64,000 nt of DNA from Candidatus Binatia bacterium (GTDB lineage: Bacteria; Desulfobacterota; Binatia; HRBIN30). Positions within the stretch are counted from its first letter, which is position 1; each line of letters opens with the position of its first letter. Position numbers and translations under genes: made by a program. The stretch is from positions 62,001 to 126,000 of the forward strand of contig JAOAHD010000016.1 in NCBI GenBank assembly GCA_026415395.1, read 5' to 3'. Under the pieces are notes generated by a model. It saw only the letters and a program-made list of their open reading frames with translations, did not search any database and was not told the DNA's origin. Below are positions 29,848 to 62,962 of this stretch, piece after piece.

Positions 29848-30638
29848 CGCTCCCGACCTTTATTGCGGCACCGTTCTCCGTCGGCATTGGCAGCACCCTG
29901 AATCTTCACGGGCGCGAGTTTCACCATTTGAGGGTACGGCGCCTTCGCCCCGGCAGTGAGGTCCGGGTGATCGATGGCACGGGCGCTTCATTCGTCGCCA
30001 CCGTGGAGACCATTGGGCGCACGGAAGCGACCCTCCGAATTTGCCGCGCGCTTCCCTTTGCCGGCGAGTCGCATTTGGAAATCACGCTCGCCATTGCCAT
30101 GATCCGCCCGGAACGGCTCGAATACGCGCTGGAGAAAGCCACAGAGCTCGGTGCGATTCGCATCATTATTTTCGCCTGTGAACGCTCGCGGCCGGCGGCC
30201 GTGGGCGCTCGTCTCCGTCGCTGGCAACGGATTCTTCAAGAAGCAACGAAACAGTGCCAGCGAAGCTGCGTGCCCGCGATCAGCTCTTGTGCCTCGGTGC
30301 AAACGCTCATTGAGCAGACGCGACCCACTTTTGGTTTACTGCTGGACGAGCAGGAAACGCTGGAGAACCATCTCCCGCAAAACCCGTTGCCACTCGAACC
30401 TCCACCACGGGTGACCGTTGTCGTCGGCCCCGAGGGCGGGTTCAGCGTGGAGGAACGGCTCCGCTTCCGCGAGGCGGGGTTCGTCTCGTTACACCTTGGG
30501 CCGCGGATCCTCCGCACCGAAACCGCTGCCGTTGTCGGCCTCACACTGGCGCAATTCTGGTGGGGCGACCTCCGGGTATGCTCCTCCGTAGGCGACAAGT
30601 TGCGCGCGGAAGCTCGGCCGCGTAGCATCCAGTCATGA
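29844..30638 (+). CDS. rsmE: 16S rRNA m3U1498 methyltransferase
   Basis: RsmE (264 residues) methylates N3 of U1498 in 16S rRNA. A PUA-like N-terminal domain contains HLRVRRLRPGSEVRVIDGTG. The SPOUT domain has the knot motifs VVVGPEGGFSVEE and LGPRILRTETAAVVGL. The last 20 or so residues after WWGDL are extra and poorly conserved in appearance. It overlaps both prmA and gshB by ATGA, so the three form an operon. Confidence 0.95.
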   Translation: MTLPTFIAAPFSVGIGSTLNLHGREFHHLRVRRLRPGSEVRVIDGTGASFVATVETIGRTEATLRICRALPFAGESHLEITLAIAMIRPERLEYALEKATELGAIRIIIFACERSRPAAVGARLRRWQRILQEATKQCQRSCVPAISSCASVQTLIEQTRPTFGLLLDEQETLENHLPQNPLPLEPPPRVTVVVGPEGGFSVEERLRFREAGFVSLHLGPRILRTETAAVVGLTLAQFWWGDLRVCSSVGDKLRAEARPRSIQS

Positions 30639-31582
30639 GCCGGCGCTTTTTGTTCGTCATGGATCCACTGGAGCGAATCCTTCCGGATCGCGACACCACC
30701 TTTGTTTTCATGCTGGAGGCCCAAGCGCGCGGGATCCAAGTATTCACCTGCACGGTCGAGCAACTATTTGCACGTGGCCACCGTGCCTATGCCCAGGCTC
30801 ACCGGACCGACGTCAACCGCGAAGGCAACCCCTTCCACCGGCTAGAGGACAGGGTGGAACCGCTTGAGTTTTACGACGCGGTATTCATGCGGAAAGATCC
30901 CCCGTTCGACCAATCTTATCTTTTCGCCACCTACCTGCTCAGCCTGGTCAACCCACAACAGACCTTCGTCCTCAATTCTCCCCGCGGTCTGCGCGAAGCC
31001 AACGAGAAGCTTTACACCCTGCACTTTCCTAGCGTCATTCCTCCCACCCTGGTGAGCTCGGATATCACCAGAATCAAGGACTTCATTCGCGAGCAAGGCG
31101 GAACCGCAATTCTCAAACCCCTCGATTGCTGTGGCGGCGCGGGGGTATTTCTCGCATCCATCGACGACCGCAATCTCAACTCCCTTCTCGAGCTGACCAC
31201 TCAGGACGGACGCCGATACCTCATGGTTCAGCGTTACCTTCCGGAGGTGCGCGAGGGCGACAAGCGCATTCTCCTCCTCAACGGCGAGCCCTTAGGCGCG
31301 ATCCTGCGCGTGCCCCGTGCCGACGACCATCGCGGCAACATCCACGTCGGTGGCACCGTCCACCCTACCACTATCACCGAGCGGGACCGCGAAATCATCG
31401 CCACGCTTGCGCCGCGACTGCGTGCCGATGGTCTTTACTTTGTCGGCATTGACGTCATCGGCCCGTACTTGACGGAAATCAACGTTACGAGCCCCACCGG
31501 GATCCAAGAATACAACCGACTTCACGGCACCCGTCTCGAAGCCGCTGTCATTGACCTTGTTCTTGCACAGATCCGAAAATGA
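30635..31582 (+). CDS. gshB: Glutathione synthetase
   Basis: GshB (315 residues) joins gamma-glutamylcysteine and glycine with ATP. It is a prokaryotic-type ATP-grasp enzyme: the N-terminus FVMDPLERILPDRDTTFVFM, the ATP-binding KPLDCCGGAGVFL, and the C-terminal metal site EINVTSPTGIQEYNRL are all clear. gshA is not in the window. It is the last gene of the prmA-rsmE-gshB operon, and a hairpin follows 2 nt after the stop. Confidence 0.96.
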   Translation: MSRRFLFVMDPLERILPDRDTTFVFMLEAQARGIQVFTCTVEQLFARGHRAYAQAHRTDVNREGNPFHRLEDRVEPLEFYDAVFMRKDPPFDQSYLFATYLLSLVNPQQTFVLNSPRGLREANEKLYTLHFPSVIPPTLVSSDITRIKDFIREQGGTAILKPLDCCGGAGVFLASIDDRNLNSLLELTTQDGRRYLMVQRYLPEVREGDKRILLLNGEPLGAILRVPRADDHRGNIHVGGTVHPTTITERDREIIATLAPRLRADGLYFVGIDVIGPYLTEINVTSPTGIQEYNRLHGTRLEAAVIDLVLAQIRK

Positions 31583-31583
31583 C

Positions 31584-31616
31584 GAGGGGCTGGACCCATA
31601 TGGGCTCCAGCCCCTC
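31584..31616. terminator. Bidirectional hairpin between gshB and the secreted-protein array
   Basis: An 11-bp perfect stem, GAGGGGCTGGA with TCCAGCCCCTC, is extended inwards by CCC/GGG around ATAT. It sits between convergent genes and can fold from both strands. There is no long T-run, so it may act as an mRNA 3' end as well as a terminator. Confidence 0.7.
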
Positions 31617-31644: not shown

Positions 31645-32859
31645 TTACGGGATTATCATCACGTCAGCCTGCTCACGATCACCCGCCATATGAATGTTGA
31701 ACGCCGCGCTCTTCGTGACCGATCCGGTGTGGGTCTCCACCGCAATCCCTAACAGCCCACTCGGAATGGAAGGCGGATTCGCAGACGGAACACCAATCGG
31801 ATTCACCCTGGTTTGGCCAGTCAAGGTTCCGGCGACGCTCACGTTCCAAATCGACCGGGCACTGTTGGCCGTATCGATCCGACTGAGCGGGATGTCCTGA
31901 TAGCAACGTACCGCACGGCTCGTCGAGAATCGCTGCTCGAACTCGTTAAACACCAGGTACTGCGCAACGGCAAGCCCCGGAATTTGCCGCAGGTAATCCG
32001 TCGAGCACGGCACCAGAACCAAGTTGGTAGAAATCGTAGCTGCCGTACCTGGAACTGGATTTCGCGCCCCATCGAAAAAGTGATCCACAATCAGATAATT
32101 CGGGCATCCATTGTATTCTCCCCTACGGCCAGGCCCGAGGGTCAACTGATTCGCAACGCCATCGGAATTGCCGGTTGCTTGGATTCCAATAGCGTTGTAC
32201 CCGGCAACGTCTATCGACGAATCACCAACTGTCACAACCTGCCCCTCACCCTTCAGGTCGTTCCTCGGGATCGGGTTGCCTTGTGGGTCAATCGCGATAC
32301 AACGCAGCTCTCCGATAAACGGATCATCAGGCACCGGTGGGATTCGTGTTCCGGCGTTGCTCTGCGTGCAGGTGCCGCCCGGGAACGGATTGCAATCCGC
32401 ATCCGTCCCACACTGCCTGGTCGGGTTCCGCACACACACGCCACGCGGCAACGGTAGGTCACCGTCGGACAGGCCCTCCGACGCCACCCACTCGATCGGC
32501 TGACCGGCGGTCAGTACAATTCGGAAGTCGGTCTCTTGCCAGCTCGGCTGACAGAACCCACCGCCAGTGCAAACCGTGGGCGACAGCGTACAGTTCGCTC
32601 CGGCGTTTGTGCCACCCACGCAGTAAGAACTCGCGTTGATGTAGTAGCAATGCAAATTGATTGGGTTGGTGGTGTTGGTGTTTGCAAGCCGGATGGTCGT
32701 ATTTACGCCTCTTGCGCCGACCACTTGCACCTTCGGATATACCAGCACCGCTGCAGGCTTATCGGAGGCGATGTCAGCGAACCCTCTCGTAACCAGTCCA
32801 CCAGACAGCAGCCCGACGGCGACAGCCATTGTCCAGCCAGCCCATCGCACCTGTCGCAT
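31645..32859 (-). CDS. Secreted protein of tandem array, type A copy 1
   Basis: I do not recognise the family of this 404-residue protein. A signal peptide ends near GFA/DIA. Features shared with the three neighbours are a VLVYPKV strand after the signal peptide, NTTIRLANT, a WQETDFRIVLTAGQPIEW block, GELRCIAID, LKGEGQVV, YNAIGI, NGCPNYLIVDHFFDGA, LVPCSTDYL and FNEFEQRFSTS. Type A copies carry a Cys-rich insertion; here two units read CTLSPTVCTGGGFC and CGTDADCNPFPGGTC. ATG 32859 is chosen because AAAGGAGAA lies 7 nt upstream. It is the second gene of the downstream module, 59 nt after the type B copy. Confidence 0.8.
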   Translation of the reverse strand: MRQVRWAGWTMAVAVGLLSGGLVTRGFADIASDKPAAVLVYPKVQVVGARGVNTTIRLANTNTTNPINLHCYYINASSYCVGGTNAGANCTLSPTVCTGGGFCQPSWQETDFRIVLTAGQPIEWVASEGLSDGDLPLPRGVCVRNPTRQCGTDADCNPFPGGTCTQSNAGTRIPPVPDDPFIGELRCIAIDPQGNPIPRNDLKGEGQVVTVGDSSIDVAGYNAIGIQATGNSDGVANQLTLGPGRRGEYNGCPNYLIVDHFFDGARNPVPGTAATISTNLVLVPCSTDYLRQIPGLAVAQYLVFNEFEQRFSTSRAVRCYQDIPLSRIDTANSARSIWNVSVAGTLTGQTRVNPIGVPSANPPSIPSGLLGIAVETHTGSVTKSAAFNIHMAGDREQADVMIIP

Positions 32860-32918
32860 CGTTATTCTCCTTTCCCCATTCGTTGGACGTCGCCTTTGTT
32901 CACGCATACCACCACGCC

Positions 32919-34076
32919 TTAGGGAGCTTGAATCTGGTCAGCCGGAATCACGATCAGGTCCTGGCCCGGCGCCGGGTCCAGCGTGTTGTGTGGGTTATGA
33001 GCAACCCGCGCCCTCCCAAGCGTTTGATGGCTGACGGTCTCCTCAACGACCGCCATAATCCCGCGGGGTGTCGCGGCGGCGGCACGAATCCGCGTTTGCA
33101 ACGTATTCCCACCCACGGCGTTCACGTTGAACACCGGGTTGATCTGCTCAAGATCCCAGTTTGCCCAGCAGGTGACGGTTGTCGATGCCGAGAAGGTCTG
33201 CTCGAACTCGTTCGTGATCGCGAACTGTAGGGTGACCGAAGTCAACTCTTGGGTCTCAAAGTTTTGCGAGCAGGGAACCACAGTCAACTCAACGCTCACA
33301 CTGCTGTCTTCATCATCAACCACCGGATTTTCCGCCCCAGAAGAAGGCGTGTCCAAAATCCACGTACGTGGGCAAGCCTCATATTCCGGGCCAGATGGAC
33401 ACAAGGCGCTGACCGACCCACCGAGGCAAAGCACGCCATCCATGTTGTTGGTGTCGAACCCTTGTAACCCGATTGCGTTATACTTCGACACGTCAAAGGT
33501 TCCGTCAAGACCACGGTCGACCAAAGTCGCCTCACCCTTCAACGAGTTTCCAGGCACCGGGAAACCGGATGCATCAACCTCGATGCACTTGAGCTCACCC
33601 GTGAAGTTTGGCCCCATTGGCGGAATCCGACCAGGATCGAAGCCGGCATCGCAGCAGTCCGCCGTGCCGTTGTTGCCACCACTGCTTGAAGGGTTACATG
33701 CAACGGCTCGACACGAATCATCGGTAGGATCATCCCAGCGGCCCGTGGAGACCACCCAGTGAGTGGGCTGCTGGCGAGTGAGCCAAATATCGAAGTCCGT
33801 CTCTACCCATCGCGGCGGATTGAGTGGCCCCACCGGCAGGTCCGGATTCACCGGCGAGCCATCCACGTAAAAGCAGTGCGCATGCCGCATATTGTTCGAG
33901 GTGTTCGTGATTTGGATCACCGTATCCCGGCTGGCGGTGGCAATCACTTTCGGAAACACCAGAATGGATGCGCTCTGCTCCGTAGTGACGCGGGCTTCAG
34001 CCAATCGGGCATTAACACCCCAACCGACCAACGCCGCGAGTCCCATGAGCCCAACTAGCCCTCGCTGCCTACGCAT
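32919..34076 (-). CDS. Secreted protein of tandem array, type B copy 1
   Basis: This 385-residue protein has a signal peptide (LVGLMGLAALVGWGV, probable cleavage at AEA/RV). After it come ILVFPKV, DTVIQITNTSNN and AHCFYVDG. The type B block PVGPLNPPRWVETDFDIWLT and QQPTHWVV is shared closely with the gene at 35381. The end has FEQTFSASTTVTCWANW where type A has FEQRFSTS. GNNGTADCCDAGFDPGRIPP includes a small Cys cluster. The start is ATG 34076 with GGAGGAGG upstream. Its own TTGACA-17-TATAAG promoter lies at 34143-34171. No enzyme motif is visible. Confidence 0.8.
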   Translation of the reverse strand: MRRQRGLVGLMGLAALVGWGVNARLAEARVTTEQSASILVFPKVIATASRDTVIQITNTSNNMRHAHCFYVDGSPVNPDLPVGPLNPPRWVETDFDIWLTRQQPTHWVVSTGRWDDPTDDSCRAVACNPSSSGGNNGTADCCDAGFDPGRIPPMGPNFTGELKCIEVDASGFPVPGNSLKGEATLVDRGLDGTFDVSKYNAIGLQGFDTNNMDGVLCLGGSVSALCPSGPEYEACPRTWILDTPSSGAENPVVDDEDSSVSVELTVVPCSQNFETQELTSVTLQFAITNEFEQTFSASTTVTCWANWDLEQINPVFNVNAVGGNTLQTRIRAAAATPRGIMAVVEETVSHQTLGRARVAHNPHNTLDPAPGQDLIVIPADQIQAP

Positions 34077-34142
34077 TACCCTCCTCCTTTCGATCACGCC
34101 GCACCGTATTCGCCAGGGCGAACCCCTCGATTGAGTGACGGC

Positions 34143-34171
34143 CTTATATCTGCATGGTTCCACCTTGTCAA
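34143..34171 (-). promoter_or_regulatory. Sigma70-type promoter of the downstream B-A module
   Basis: On the minus strand TTGACA (34171-34166) and TATAAG (34148-34143) are separated by exactly 17 nt. The site is 67 nt before the type B ATG at 34076 and matches the core of the promoter at 36656-36684. Confidence 0.8.
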
Positions 34172-34199
34172 GCTAAAAGCGCCGAATTTCATGACCGTC

Positions 34200-35384
34200 T
34201 CACTGCAACGGCAAATAGACAAAGTCGCTCTGCGGGCGCGCTCCCTGCATGTGCAGTTGAAACGCCGCACTCCCGCCCCCCGCACGGAATTCCTCCGCTA
34301 CGCCAAGAAGTGTTTGGCCACGCGTACGGTCGTTGTTCGCCACGCCCCGGATGCGCGTTTGCCCTGTAAGCGTGCCTGACACACCCGCGTGGAAAATGGA
34401 AAACGTGGGCACCCGCGTGTCGATTTCTGAAAGCCGGAACTCCCGAAAACAGTTGAAGTCGCGAAAGCTTGTCGAGAAGCGCTGCTCGAACTCATTGAAA
34501 ACCAAAAATTGCACCGGGATGGATGTTGGCCGCTGCGTCAAGAAGTCTTCCGTACACGGCACCAAGGTGAGTGTGGTGTTGATTCCCTGCTGCGTCACCG
34601 GGTCCTGCGCGCCGTCGAAGAAGTGATCCAAAATCAGCACATTTGGGCAGCCGGCGTACTCGGCACCGTTACCCCCCAGTACAAGAACGTTATCCCGATT
34701 GTTGGCACCTGGCAGCGCCGGAATGCCGACAGCGTTGTATGCACGCACGTCGAAGGCATTGATCCCGTTCTGGATGTCCGAACGCACGATCAACGCCTCG
34801 CCCTTGAGGGCGTTATCTTCAATCGGAACGTCATTCTGATCAACCGCAATACACTTCAACTCGCCGACGAAGGGATCTTCCTGCACAGCAGGCACTCGAC
34901 TCTCCAAGTTATTGGTTGGGCTTGGCCGCCCGGCGCCGCCAATTGGGAAACACGGCAAGTTCGGATCCACAGCATCGCTGCACAAGGTTGCACCCATCGA
35001 GGCGAGCCAGGCCACAGGTTGACGAGCGGTGAGCTGCACAATGAAGTCCGTCTCCTGCCATCCCGGAACACAGACCGAATTCGCTGGGCAACGATCATCG
35101 CGCGGGAGCAACGTGGGATCGCAAATCACCCCCGGGGCATTAAAGCAATGACCGTTGGCGTTCACCCAAAAGCACTGCATCCGAATCGGCTTGTTCAGCG
35201 TGTTGCTGATGCGAATGAGCGTGTCGAGCCTACCGCGCCCAGCACTGTTATTTGTGTCGACCACGACCTTCGGGAAGACAAGGATTGCCGCGGCGCGATC
35301 GGAGCCAACGACCTGCGCATTAGCCACTTTGGTAAGCGCTGCAGCAATCAGCAGCACTGCCCATGCGTTGCGCCGCAGCTTCAT
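34200..35384 (-). CDS. Secreted protein of tandem array, type A copy 2
   Basis: This 394-residue protein has a clear signal peptide (AWAVLLIAAALTKVANA, cleavage at ANA/QV). It is the sister of the gene at 31645, sharing ILVFPKV, DTLIRISNT, WQETDFIVQLTARQPVAW, CPNVLILDHFFDGAQDPV, LVPCTEDFL and FLVFNEFEQRFSTSF. The middle has the Cys-containing insertion (CDPTLLPRDDRCPANSVC). The C-terminus is HMQGARPQSDFVYLPLQ. Its ATG overlaps the stop of the upstream type B gene (ATGA), so the two are translationally coupled. The function is unknown; no catalytic motif or anchor is seen. Confidence 0.82.
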   Translation of the reverse strand: MKLRRNAWAVLLIAAALTKVANAQVVGSDRAAAILVFPKVVVDTNNSAGRGRLDTLIRISNTLNKPIRMQCFWVNANGHCFNAPGVICDPTLLPRDDRCPANSVCVPGWQETDFIVQLTARQPVAWLASMGATLCSDAVDPNLPCFPIGGAGRPSPTNNLESRVPAVQEDPFVGELKCIAVDQNDVPIEDNALKGEALIVRSDIQNGINAFDVRAYNAVGIPALPGANNRDNVLVLGGNGAEYAGCPNVLILDHFFDGAQDPVTQQGINTTLTLVPCTEDFLTQRPTSIPVQFLVFNEFEQRFSTSFRDFNCFREFRLSEIDTRVPTFSIFHAGVSGTLTGQTRIRGVANNDRTRGQTLLGVAEEFRAGGGSAAFQLHMQGARPQSDFVYLPLQ

Positions 35385-36562
35385 GGGGCCACCTCCGGGA
35401 TCGTGATGCGGTCTCCACCAGGGCGTTCACCCTCCACGTGCAGGTTAAGAGCCGCGCGCGACAGAAACCCACGCCCATCGTTATAAAATTCCTCAGAAAC
35501 ACCCACGAAACCGGGCTGCTCAGGCCCACCCGGAGTCATTCGCGTTTGCGCAAAGCGCGTCCCCAAAAAACTTTGGTCAAAGATGCGCCCCACTGAGTTC
35601 AAGCGGAAGTTCGACCAGCATGTAACCGTGGTGCTAGCCGAGAACAGGTTCTCAAACTCATTTGTCACGCGAAATTGCACGACCACAGTGCCGGGAATCT
35701 GGTTTTCGAAGTCCTGCGTGCAAGGTACCAAGGTAACCTCAGTTTCCACACGAGAGTTGGGGATGTCCGCTATTGGAAGCGCCGGCATCGTTGCACGCTC
35801 AGCAAAGTGATTCACAATCACCGCACCCGGGCATCCATTGTATTCCGCGCCGCCCGGACAGCCCGGCCTCGGAGGACCACCGATGCACAAGGTTAGATCC
35901 CCATCGTTTGAGTTGGTATCCGTGTTCAAACCCAGGATCCCTACGGCATTGTACTTACTAACCTCGCCCTGCCGCATCGTGACCGCTCCAACGGTCACTG
36001 CTCGGGGAGTGACCAACGTAGCCTCGCCCTTCAGCCGGTTTCCGTTCAACGGGGCACCAGCGGCGTCGACTTCAATACAAACGAGCTGCCCTTCAAAGTT
36101 CGGAGGGACTGCAGGGATCGGGCCCGGGTCAAACCCCGCGTTCGGGCAACTGAACACAGGCGGCACACGGCTGCACTGAGGGTCCGTCGGATCCACTCTC
36201 CGGCCCTGGCCCACCACCCAGTATGTCGGCTGCTGCTTCGTCAGCACGATATCGAAGTCGACCTCCTGCCACTGCGGTGGATTGAAGGGACCGACCGGCT
36301 GCCTTGGATCCAAGGGCGCAGCATTGACGTAAAAGCAGTGCGCAAAAGCGAGCGAGTTCGAAGTGTTCGAAATTTGAATAATTGTCTCAACTGGGAAGCC
36401 TCCGGTGAGCAAGCCATCTCCGTCCGAAATGACCTTGGGAAAGATCAAGATCGAGCTTCCACGCTCCACGCTGACATCAGCACGCAACTGGGAGACACAA
36501 GCCACTGAAGCCATCCAGGTGACGATGGCATATCGAACCACCCAACGGCTCAGTTTACCCAT
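35381..36562 (-). CDS. Secreted protein of tandem array, type B copy 2
   Basis: This 393-residue exported protein has a signal peptide of about 29 residues ending LRA/DV. It is the sister of the gene at 32919: SILIFPKV, ETIIQISNTSNS, FAHCFYVNAAPLDPRQPVGP, FNPPQWQEVDFDIVLTKQQP and NLFSASTTVTCWSNF are nearly the same blocks. The distance between conserved blocks suggests a beta-rich fold, but I cannot name one. ATG 36562 is preferred (GGGGAG upstream) over a frame reaching 36643. It is the first gene of the array behind a strong promoter. Confidence 0.82.
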   Translation of the reverse strand: MGKLSRWVVRYAIVTWMASVACVSQLRADVSVERGSSILIFPKVISDGDGLLTGGFPVETIIQISNTSNSLAFAHCFYVNAAPLDPRQPVGPFNPPQWQEVDFDIVLTKQQPTYWVVGQGRRVDPTDPQCSRVPPVFSCPNAGFDPGPIPAVPPNFEGQLVCIEVDAAGAPLNGNRLKGEATLVTPRAVTVGAVTMRQGEVSKYNAVGILGLNTDTNSNDGDLTLCIGGPPRPGCPGGAEYNGCPGAVIVNHFAERATMPALPIADIPNSRVETEVTLVPCTQDFENQIPGTVVVQFRVTNEFENLFSASTTVTCWSNFRLNSVGRIFDQSFLGTRFAQTRMTPGGPEQPGFVGVSEEFYNDGRGFLSRAALNLHVEGERPGGDRITIPEVAP

Positions 36563-36711: not shown

Positions 36712-37629
36712 CTAACTCACCTCTGTGAGCCAATGGCGGTATGCGGCAACCTCACCCCGCACCACGGCGCGAAACCGGTCTTGAAGCTGCCGCGTCACCA
36801 CCCCAGGGGCTCCGTCCCCAATGACCCGCCCGTCGATCTCGCGGACCGGGGTGACCTCAGCCGCAGTGCCTGTCATGAACACTTCATCGGCAATGTAAGC
36901 CTCGTCACGCGTGAAGCGCTCCTCCACCCAACGCACCGACATATCGTCCAGCAAAGCCAGCACAGACGCCCGCGTAATACCCTCCAACACCGAAGTCAGC
37001 GGTGGGGTCTTCACCACACCTCGCCGTACGATGAACAAATTCTCCCCGCTGCATTCGGCCACAAAGCCATCGGTATCGAGCATCATCGCCTCGTCATAAC
37101 CCGCGCTACGCGCTTCAACGGCAGCCAGGATCGAATTGACGTAATTCCCCACGGCCTTTGCCTTGGTCATGAACGAGTTTACGTGCATCCGCTGAAACGA
37201 CGAGGTTTTCAGCCGCACACCTCGACGAACACCTTCATCACCCAAGTACGCTCCCCAGGGCCAGGCAGCAATCGCGACGCGGACTGGGTTGTGCACGGCC
37301 GCGAGCCCCATCTCCCCATCCCCTAAAAATACCAGCGGTCGCAGGTAGCCCGCCTTCAACCGGTTCACCCGAATGGTTTCCACACACGCGCTCTCGATCT
37401 CGCTTCGAGAAAACGGCACCTTGATGCCCAGGATGTGCGCCGACGCAAACAACCGCTCAATGTGCTCCGTCAAGCGGAAGATCAGGGGGCGACCGTGCTT
37501 CCCTTCGTAGCACCGAATCCCTTCGAACACGCCCAAGCCGTAGTGAAGCGTGTGGGTGAGCACGTGAACTTGCGCCTGGTCCCATGGTACAAACCGGCCA
37601 TCGAGCCAAATGTGTTCGGTCTTTTCCAC
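36712..37629 (-). CDS. ilvE: Branched-chain amino acid aminotransferase
   Basis: IlvE (305 residues) is a fold-type IV PLP enzyme for the last step of valine, leucine and isoleucine synthesis. The N-terminus has [18 protein letters not shown]. The PLP Lys lies in [16 protein letters not shown], and [20 protein letters not shown] closes the active site. The gene follows glnE by 62 nt on the same strand. Confidence 0.95.
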
Positions 37630-61693: not shown

Positions 61694-62962
61694 TTACGCT
61701 CCGGCGATTTCCCCAGGCGAGCTGTTTGCGACCTGCGGCAGTGCGCCGGGAAAGAGCTCGTCGATCGAAGCGTGTTCAAGCAAATCCTTCCATTGCTGCG
61801 TCGCCTTTTCCTGCATCACCGCCCATAGTCGGGCCACCACGGAATCGACCTCGCCGGGAACCAAAGCGTAATCGAGCGTGGTCAAGCGAGCGAGATCCCA
61901 GGTGCGCGGGGCAGATCCCAAGACGTATCGATCCCTCGCACCCTCGGGGGACACCGCAAGCCAACCCCACTCCGTCATGACCCGAGCGATCTCTTCCGCG
62001 ACCTCTACCGCCACGTTGTGCTTCCTCGCCCAATGGACGGTGTCGACCTTGCCACCACCGTGCTCGAACGCGTGCCATGCGCAGCGCAAAAACTGAATCG
62101 CTAGGACACTTCGCGGATACATTGCGGTCCCGCCCGGCCCACGCCCAAACTCACATACCGCGGCGCACTCTGCACCAAACAGAAATACGATCCAACTCGC
62201 ATGCAACCACACGAGCGTGATTGGGAGCTGCGCCAGTGCCCCGTACACCGCGTTGTAGCGAGCGACACCGATTTGCAGGCTTACATAAAGCCACTGAACC
62301 AACTGCCAAAGCAGCCCTGCCACTAGTGCTCCCACGAGCACCGCACGCCAATTTGGCTTCCGGTTCGGAAGTACGACGTAGAGAACGAGGATTCCCGCAA
62401 CGTTCAAGGCAATTGGAACAAGCAGCAGACCACTCCGAATGAGCTGACCTGCAACCGGTATCCCTTCGGCTACCCGCACCATGTGCCCCAAGTGGTGAGA
62501 AGAAGTGATGGCAATCGCGGCGAGCAACAAAAACGGCGTGAGCAACACCAAGCCTAGATGCTCTCGAATTCTTCGCCACCCACCGCGCCCTCGCTGCGCT
62601 CGCCACACACCGTCAAGAGCCGCCTCGATTGCGCCTAACAGGCCCACCACCGTTGTCAGTAACAACACGGCACCCAAGGCACCCAGTACGCCGACATTGA
62701 GGCGCTCGATGGCAGACATAATCGTCGCCATCGTTTCTGGGGGAATTGCGAGACGCGCGAGCACCGCCGGCTCGACCTTGCGCGGGACTCCCAGGCCTTT
62801 CAGCACCGCGAACACAACCGCCAACAGTGGCACCACCGACAGCAACGACACATAGGCCAGCGCCGACGCACGAGTCAGACAATCGTCGCGGTAGAAGCGC
62901 AATGCTGCAGCAACGATGAGCGCCGCCGTGTTGCGCAGCCACTCAACCCACCGAATCGGCAC
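61694..62962 (-). CDS. YihY/BrkB family inner-membrane protein
   Basis: This 422-residue protein has the family's six membrane segments within the first 290 residues (AYVSLLSVVPLLAVVFAVLK, LGAVLLLTTVVGLLGAIEAA and others). DDCLTRASALAYVSLLSVVP is the typical start motif. A C-terminal cytoplasmic part of about 130 residues looks like a winged helix (VEVAEEIARVMTEWGWL). The old annotation as RNase BN is wrong for the family; its role is unknown. The gene starts 12 nt downstream of the opgG stop. Confidence 0.9.
   Translation of the reverse strand: MPIRWVEWLRNTAALIVAAALRFYRDDCLTRASALAYVSLLSVVPLLAVVFAVLKGLGVPRKVEPAVLARLAIPPETMATIMSAIERLNVGVLGALGAVLLLTTVVGLLGAIEAALDGVWRAQRGRGGWRRIREHLGLVLLTPFLLLAAIAITSSHHLGHMVRVAEGIPVAGQLIRSGLLLVPIALNVAGILVLYVVLPNRKPNWRAVLVGALVAGLLWQLVQWLYVSLQIGVARYNAVYGALAQLPITLVWLHASWIVFLFGAECAAVCEFGRGPGGTAMYPRSVLAIQFLRCAWHAFEHGGGKVDTVHWARKHNVAVEVAEEIARVMTEWGWLAVSPEGARDRYVLGSAPRTWDLARLTTLDYALVPGEVDSVVARLWAVMQEKATQQWKDLLEHASIDELFPGALPQVANSSPGEIAGA

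Follow-up and report, generated by a model that had tools for sequence, protein, structure and literature searches.

Four consecutive genes in the genome of a Candidatus Binatia bacterium (order HRBIN30) raise the question of why two related types of exported protein should alternate along one strand, and of what such an arrangement might be for. The genes lie on contig JAOAHD010000016.1 of assembly GCA_026415395.1, within a stretch of 64,000 nucleotides (contig positions 62,001 to 126,000) that we refer to as the window. Their open reading frames (ORFs) run uninterrupted on the minus strand from window position 31645 to 36562 in the gene order B-A-B-A, and we call them B1, A1, B2, and A2. An earlier note, made from the sequence alone, had described four exported proteins of 385 to 404 residues that share a set of sequence blocks, fall into two alternating subtypes and could not be assigned to a known family, and had proposed the duplication of a two-gene module and possibly a hetero-oligomeric A/B surface structure. 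Our comparative analysis indicates that the four genes most likely form a single operon-like locus and belong to an undescribed family of secreted proteins, encoded nearly always as B-A gene pairs. The best explanation of these pairs, to which we give about an even chance, is that A and B form a secreted heteromer and that different pairs bind glycans or other small extracellular ligands. The earlier reading as a whole is partly supported.

The B-A pair as the unit of duplication and inheritance

Alignment of the four window proteins spans 456 columns, 73 of them listed as invariant, and all the blocks named in the earlier note are present. Each protein begins, as judged by eye, with a basic-hydrophobic export leader ending in an A-x-A-like site. 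Sequence identity to B1 is 48% for B2, 40% for A1, and 37% for A2. A profile built from the four proteins recovered 13 A/B genes in their own genome at 143 to 656 bits (best piece of each), so the likeness of the four proteins is not due to chance. The profile search for other A/B pairs placed four clusters, that of the window included, and one distant pair in this genome, and pairing extends over the whole order. Each of the 15 genomes searched from the order gave 13–24 matches, with a few genes divided among several matches.

For the initial phylogeny, a profile hit had to cover more than 290 profile positions, which retained 123 of 131. Near-copies and cut loci (L027, L038, L040, L039, L046, L041, L042, L034, L030, L028, L044, and L093) were excluded from the IQ-TREE, position, and distance tests, and two loci with split ORFs (L081 and L084) from the position and spacing tests. 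In a quick IQ-TREE search of 98 rows, A (48 rows) resolved as a single clade with a Shimodaira–Hasegawa-like approximate likelihood ratio (SH-aLRT) support of 99. When B (42 rows) was held as one clade, the resulting tree was 19.9 log units better than the free tree and was not rejected by the approximately unbiased test (p-AU 0.77). The division into two subtypes first seen in the window thus holds across the family. A FastTree value of 0.997 for the A branch was left unused because it came from a re-rooted tree, in which labels may have moved. Since the A/B labels themselves derive from an earlier tree, we added a test based on gene position alone: odd versus even position requires 4 changes over 82 rows, with 6 rows off by position. 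Three of these 6 come from B-A-A triples, where the third gene is out of step; the others are L031's fifth gene and the A genes of L091 and L095.

Gene order follows the same division. B leads 36 of 41 clusters and A comes next in 35 (in L028 the second gene is truncated and carries no label); among the other five, L030, L044, and L093 are cut upstream by the contig end, and L091 and L095 hold A only. Further loci, typed with separate A and B profiles, start with B-A in 15 of 17 cases and consist of a single A in two; L143, L144, and L147 among these 17 repeat L031, L043, and L042, as judged by ORF lengths, and many of all these loci are orthologs in related genomes rather than independent cases. 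Across families f1, f3, and f4, B1 groups with the first genes of other clusters, A1 with the second, B2 with the third, and A2 with the fourth, which places the doubling to B-A-B-A before the split of those families.

The partners also share their history. Distances among B proteins correlate with those among their linked A proteins (r 0.70 over 40 pairs). For 26 pairs from four genomes r was 0.73, and none of 5000 within-genome permutations of partners reached a value as high (mean 0.13, maximum 0.55). In 27 of the 40 cases, the closest B and the closest A found at any other locus are themselves partners. Spacing differs as well: measured from the stop codon of the preceding gene to the FPK motif, the median is 176 bases within pairs (n 49) versus 221 between them (n 16; p 1.1e-4, related rows included), and the gaps in the window follow this trend. 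Linked A and B therefore evolved as pairs, and the unit that was copied and kept is the pair, not the single gene. With the A and B groups holding family-wide, B standing first, and the partner trees mirroring each other, duplication of a two-gene B-A module, as the earlier note had proposed, is strongly supported.

Predicted fold and cysteine content

AlphaFold models of A1 and B1 were computed from 63-row alignments comprising 59 of the 64 hits in L027–L048 and the four window proteins. The A1 model (m33f7ea0bcafe) has a predicted local distance difference test score (pLDDT) of 89.6 and a predicted template modelling score (pTM) of 0.88, and the B1 model (mc3aaa39cd979) scores 89.3 and 0.87. 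Both open with an N-terminal helix, the export leader, of low to middling confidence, followed by a beta-sandwich up to about residue 225 and another from about residue 245 to the C-terminus. In structural comparison, residues 30–224 of A1 matched PDB entry 1nc7 with Z 12.0 (115 of 116 residues, root-mean-square deviation [rmsd] 3.6; next entry Z 5.2) and residues 33–211 of B1 matched it with Z 12.7 (114 of 116 residues, rmsd 3.9; next entry Z 6.0); Foldseek gave 1nc7 a probability of 1.00. At fold level, the N-terminal domain of these predicted models is an eight-stranded TM1070-type beta-sandwich.

The structural reference for the ASRAH superfamily is TM1070 of Thermotoga (1nc7). A cleft, gene neighbors, and domain fusions led to the proposal that these domains bind sugars; apart from an ethanediol in the TM1070 pocket, small-molecule binding in the superfamily is itself inferred (PMC2739507). 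A conserved Trp starts strand 1 in ASRAH, the strand-2 signature SHEshChhN is confined to the ASRT-like family, and the other ASRAH families likewise lack the cleft His and Cys (PMC2739507). The non-solo ASRAH families are secreted and always built as dyads or tetrads of the domain (PMC2739507). Our models resemble this superfamily in the N-terminal fold and in a nearly invariant Asn closing strand 2 (N61 of A1, strand 52–61; N66 of B1, strand 58–66), which is at least 90% conserved and was located by secondary structure rather than by superposition. The A/B family differs in being Cys-rich and encoded by paired genes. The ASRT model PF07100 matched none of the 63 members at E 0.1 and no protein above cut-off in 148 genomes of the phylum, the window's own included. 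The actinobacterial ASRAH lipoproteins (De Souza et al. 2009, PMC2739507) are likewise secreted, have two beta-sandwich units, and are predicted to bind sugars; by their description they have a lipobox and WhiB and glycosyltransferase neighbors, none of which we see by eye in the window proteins or the adjoining genes.

On the evidence of confident models, then, the N-terminal domain has the TM1070/ASRAH fold, and a protein built like an ASRAH protein perhaps also works like one. This amends the earlier statement that no known family applies: it stands for Pfam and NCBIfam, none of whose models reached its cut-off in any of the proteins scanned, and falls for the fold of the N-terminal domain. 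Nor did the proteins match any well-characterized family with another role. A reading of the C-terminal beta-sandwich as a second ASRAH unit finds no support in the sequence (N half against C half, hhalign E 0.23; reversed control 0.63), and its structural hits are weak (Z up to 5.6). Foldseek hits to arrestin, Vps26, and viral capsids (E near 1e-3 to 1e-2, template modelling score below 0.2, probability below 0.3) were set aside as generic beta folds.

Five cysteines are common to A and B and, by motif context, are also found in single-gene relatives outside the order. A has four more between strands 67–75 and 110–118, and each of these occurs in 92% of the A rows. From the FPK motif onward the proteins contain 5 to 33 cysteines, yet the number is odd in 53 of 64 A proteins and 41 of 55 B proteins. 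In 34 of 52 pairs this is true of both partners. These tallies include every labelled row, near-copies among them, and related rows cannot be treated as independent. Dropping ten loci that are near-copies or cut leaves 40 pairs, with both partners odd in 26. The window proteins have 9, 11, 11, and 13 cysteines, all odd. Disulfides added by twos to an odd core would leave one thiol per chain, which a B-A bond would satisfy, and the odd counts hint in this way at A-B assembly. The single-gene relatives, with 6, 6, 9, and 9 cysteines after the FP motif, counsel caution on this argument.

Proposed complex formation and ligand binding, and the competing explanations

The secreted-heteromer explanation can be set out as follows. 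B and A would have arisen from one old duplication and stayed together as a unit, which then multiplied to four or more loci per genome. The two proteins would be made together, exported, and assembled outside the cytoplasm into a heteromer, its subunits joined perhaps through an inter-subunit disulfide. A cleft in the N-terminal domains, bordered by variable Cys-rich loops, would form the binding site, and several pairs per genome would provide several specificities, each pair having its own glycan or small ligand. Within this explanation, formation of the B-A complex seems to us probable on balance, whereas sugar binding, its least certain part, is a tentative suggestion. We infer surface display as well, and the hetero-oligomeric surface structure raised in the earlier note has become somewhat more plausible through the cysteine parity and the A genes with threonine- and proline-rich (Thr/Pro-rich) stalks described below.

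A number of observations weigh against this explanation. The A branch has a support of 0.793 in the FastTree phylogeny of 123 rows, B needs two changes in the free IQ-TREE tree, and the third genes of the B-A-A triples violate strict alternation. Even cysteine numbers occur in one or both partners of 18 of the 52 pairs, and many of these cases come from clusters of the L077 and L096 types. In the predicted fold, strand 1 is ILVFPKV-like and has no conserved Trp, while strand 2 is DTxIQISN-like with an invariant Thr and does not conserve the cleft His/Cys signature. Sequence homology to ASRT was rejected, hhalign giving E 0.54, worse than the 0.032 of the reversed control (with an ASRT profile of 9 rows). 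As there is neither a sequence-profile link nor the strand-1 Trp, we do not file the family as a member of ASRT/ASRAH. By eye, no glycan enzyme, transporter, or dedicated exporter-like gene directly adjoins the window cluster. Finally, A occurs without B in four loci (L091, L095, L149, and L150), and tandem genes copied as a block would share order and history without any contact between their products.

The competing explanation that survives best holds that A and B are building blocks of a layer, fiber, or extracellular matrix with no small ligand, their paralogs giving rise to variable coats. The 13–24 matches in every searched genome of the order and the beta-sandwich domains with variable Cys-rich loops would suit such a role, and so would several sister clusters. 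A Thr/Pro-rich protein of about 650 to 1065 residues lies upstream on the same strand in 10 of 11 L077-type loci (the eleventh, L139, is cut by the contig end, and L147 among them repeats L042). Two A genes (L096:10028-12220 and L151:2086-3852) extend into a Thr/Pro-rich stretch of 200–300 residues, which in L096 ends in two EF-hand-like loops seen by eye and not called by Pfam. The nearest fold is nevertheless that of a proposed ligand-binding domain, and the window proteins have by eye no C-terminal sorting or anchoring signal and no lipobox; we consider a purely structural role rather unlikely. In the distant pair of the window's genome (L080:8591-11079, on C2) and at L048:607-3300, the second protein has a Thr/Pro-rich stretch before the family domains, and all four proteins of these pairs have 6 cysteines. 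The Thr/Pro-rich protein at L077:5727-8402 and its equivalents have an export leader by eye, and further Thr/Pro-rich proteins lie near L134, L096, L151, and L095; neighbor group c0, which is partly joined by low-complexity Thr/Pro sequence, was not counted as one family.

A second competing explanation is that A and B are tandem paralogs with separate jobs that never form a complex, their order and co-inheritance stemming from block duplication and shared regulation. Block duplication would explain both the gene order and the mirrored trees, and the four loci with A alone fit it. It accounts less readily for the retention of B before A, with few losses, in four families and several types of cluster, or for cysteine counts that are mostly odd in both A and B. 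The 4-base overlap of B1 and A1 (ATGA) and the shorter spacing within pairs suggest matched synthesis. Single-gene status outside the order (G504, G522, G057, and G066) was counted for the paired reading. These relatives, from the same phylum or class (L115 and L116; L117 and L118), are homologous, and unlike the members inside the order they occur as one gene per genome with no A/B partner. Separate jobs are, in our judgment, unlikely.

The pairs could also be accessory parts of a cohesin–dockerin surface network, serving as cargo or as binding modules on stalked dockerin proteins. The genomes of the order encode such domains (Cohesin matches in 14 of 15, Dockerin_1 matches in 15 of 15), in some cases beside A/B clusters: Dockerin_1 exceeds its cut-off in the Thr/Pro-rich protein upstream of the L077-type clusters L086, L141, and L092, and a protein with dockerin-like motifs lies 1.3–3.5 kb upstream in 6 of 10 L078-type loci (over the Dockerin_1 cut-off in L135 and L144, the latter being the L043 locus, and below it in L078). 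At L134, a cohesin lies close to the cut-off of 24.1 bits, with scores of 23.5 and 26.1 in two separate searches. In 8 of 10 L079-type loci, a protein with calcium-loop-like motifs lies on the opposite strand within 300 bases; Pfam identifies it as an FG-GAP protein in L079, L142, and L148, and another FG-GAP protein occurs at L145. The main text of the Binatota genome paper (PMC8262859) names neither cohesin nor dockerin. We regard the network explanation as very unlikely, because the window cluster has no Thr/Pro-rich or dockerin-motif neighbor, Pfam finds no Cohesin or Dockerin_1 domain in the four window proteins or the 63 members, Dockerin_1 does not match the equivalent proteins at L077 and L081 or the second such protein of L086, and with 3–27 Dockerin_1 matches per genome, nearness to the clusters is not shown to exceed chance.

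An extended version of the secreted-heteromer explanation would make the family an unrecognized modular surface-recognition system of one order, in which several non-interchangeable, disulfide-linked B-A heteromers, each with its own Cys-framed loops and ligands, would stand partly on Thr/Pro stalks and be tied into a cohesin–dockerin network outside the diderm cell. We consider this full version distinctly improbable.

The window locus and the extent of the family

Coordinates of the genes, their neighbors, and the other family loci of the genome are collected in Table 1. The gap between B2 and A2 is 59 bases. Window-type clusters are surrounded by housekeeping genes, and the ilvE-like upstream neighbor recurs in other families of the order, which marks the window locus as old. 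A promoter scan of the locus reported 4 promoter-like sites (shuffles 1.8, standard deviation [sd] 1.4), of which only one is on the strand of the genes, and it falls inside B2. A terminator scan gave 2 terminator-like sites against 5.5 in shuffles (sd 2.5), and neither is on that strand. An imperfect GC-rich hairpin visible by eye at 31584–31616, between A2 and the gshB-like gene, was not reported by the terminator scan.

Table 1. Genes and neighbors at the B-A-B-A locus (window positions) and other family loci of the same genome
Feature	Description	Position	Strand	Basis
B1	393-aa B-type protein, export leader, two beta-sandwich domains; leading gene of the cluster	36562-35381	minus	ORF list, alignment, model
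A1	394-aa A-type protein, export leader; start codon overlaps the B1 stop by 4 bases	35384-34200	minus	ORF list, alignment, model
Intergenic gap	123 bases between A1 and B2, separating the two B-A pairs	34077-34199	minus	Gene coordinates
B2	385-aa B-type protein, export leader	34076-32919	minus	Clusters in tree with third genes of other clusters
A2	404-aa A-type protein, export leader, Cys-rich inserts in N-terminal domain	32859-31645	minus	Clusters in tree with fourth genes
Upstream neighbor	Branched-chain aminotransferase (ilvE)-like by eye	36712-37629	minus	Neighbor group c2, 9 loci
Downstream neighbor	Glutathione synthetase (gshB)-like by eye, convergent	30635-31582	plus	Neighbor group c12, 4 loci
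Own-genome A/B loci	Clusters besides the window; distant pair	C16:176-180 kb; C7:350-356 kb; C7:920-923 kb; distant pair C2:141-144 kb		

Beyond the order, matches are few. In the class, 18 of 148 genomes match, comprising the 15 of the order and 3 weak cases among the 133 others (about 12 candidates were scored per genome), and in a phylum sample at least 4 of 395 genomes match, a lower bound set by scoring at most 4 candidates per genome. A scan of one genome per species over 84,980 species, using two short peptide patterns only, yielded 22 loci, most of them from records under the titles Deltaproteobacteria, Candidatus Binatia, or Bacterium HR30. L027 (Bacterium HR30, HRbin30) and G007, which belongs to the window's genus, gave the same ORFs and the same scores, which makes the window's order the one containing HRbin30; PMC8262859 treats HRBin30 as an order within Binatota. 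L034, a 4-kb contig with a B-A pair filed under Patescibacteria, groups with the Binatia copy L032, and its placement is probably a binning error. In G030, two weak matches, each partial, lie apart from one another; at one of them (L122:457-1707), a 416-aa protein has related N-terminal motifs (LLFPF, DTLIAITNT, and FDFNITLT) and no adjoining family partner in that search, and it may point to a wider superfamily. The A-type member at L035:9050-10714 has about 170 extra C-terminal residues with no Pfam match at E 1.

Other affiliations were considered and rejected. B1 had no match in the PDB by sequence, and the only PDB match of the family profile, tubulin at E 0.57 or worse, was taken as chance. 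A phage or plasmid origin was set aside, as A1 gave no tblastn match in either collection. Weak Pfam matches to Cys-rich modules (EB, WAP, and EGF-like) in 1–2 of the 63 members were read as local Cys-rich inserts rather than as a family, and NCBIfam adhesin matches in the second ORF of L048 were far below their cut-offs, on a low-complexity stretch outside the family domains. Among the papers listed on ASRAH, Binatota/HRBIN30, dockerin and cohesin in Binatia, and lineage-specific secreted paralogs, titles and abstract beginnings held no account of the A/B family.

The fold is known, and its paired, multiplied, and order-restricted use looks new. With no Pfam or NCBIfam model and 13–24 matches per genome, the family represents a large exported investment by bacteria known from metagenomes. 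Its strict B-A pairing yields a sharp prediction, a heteromer, and synthetic genes would allow this to be tested without cultivation. The link to the TM1070/ASRAH fold suggests which class of ligand to try first.

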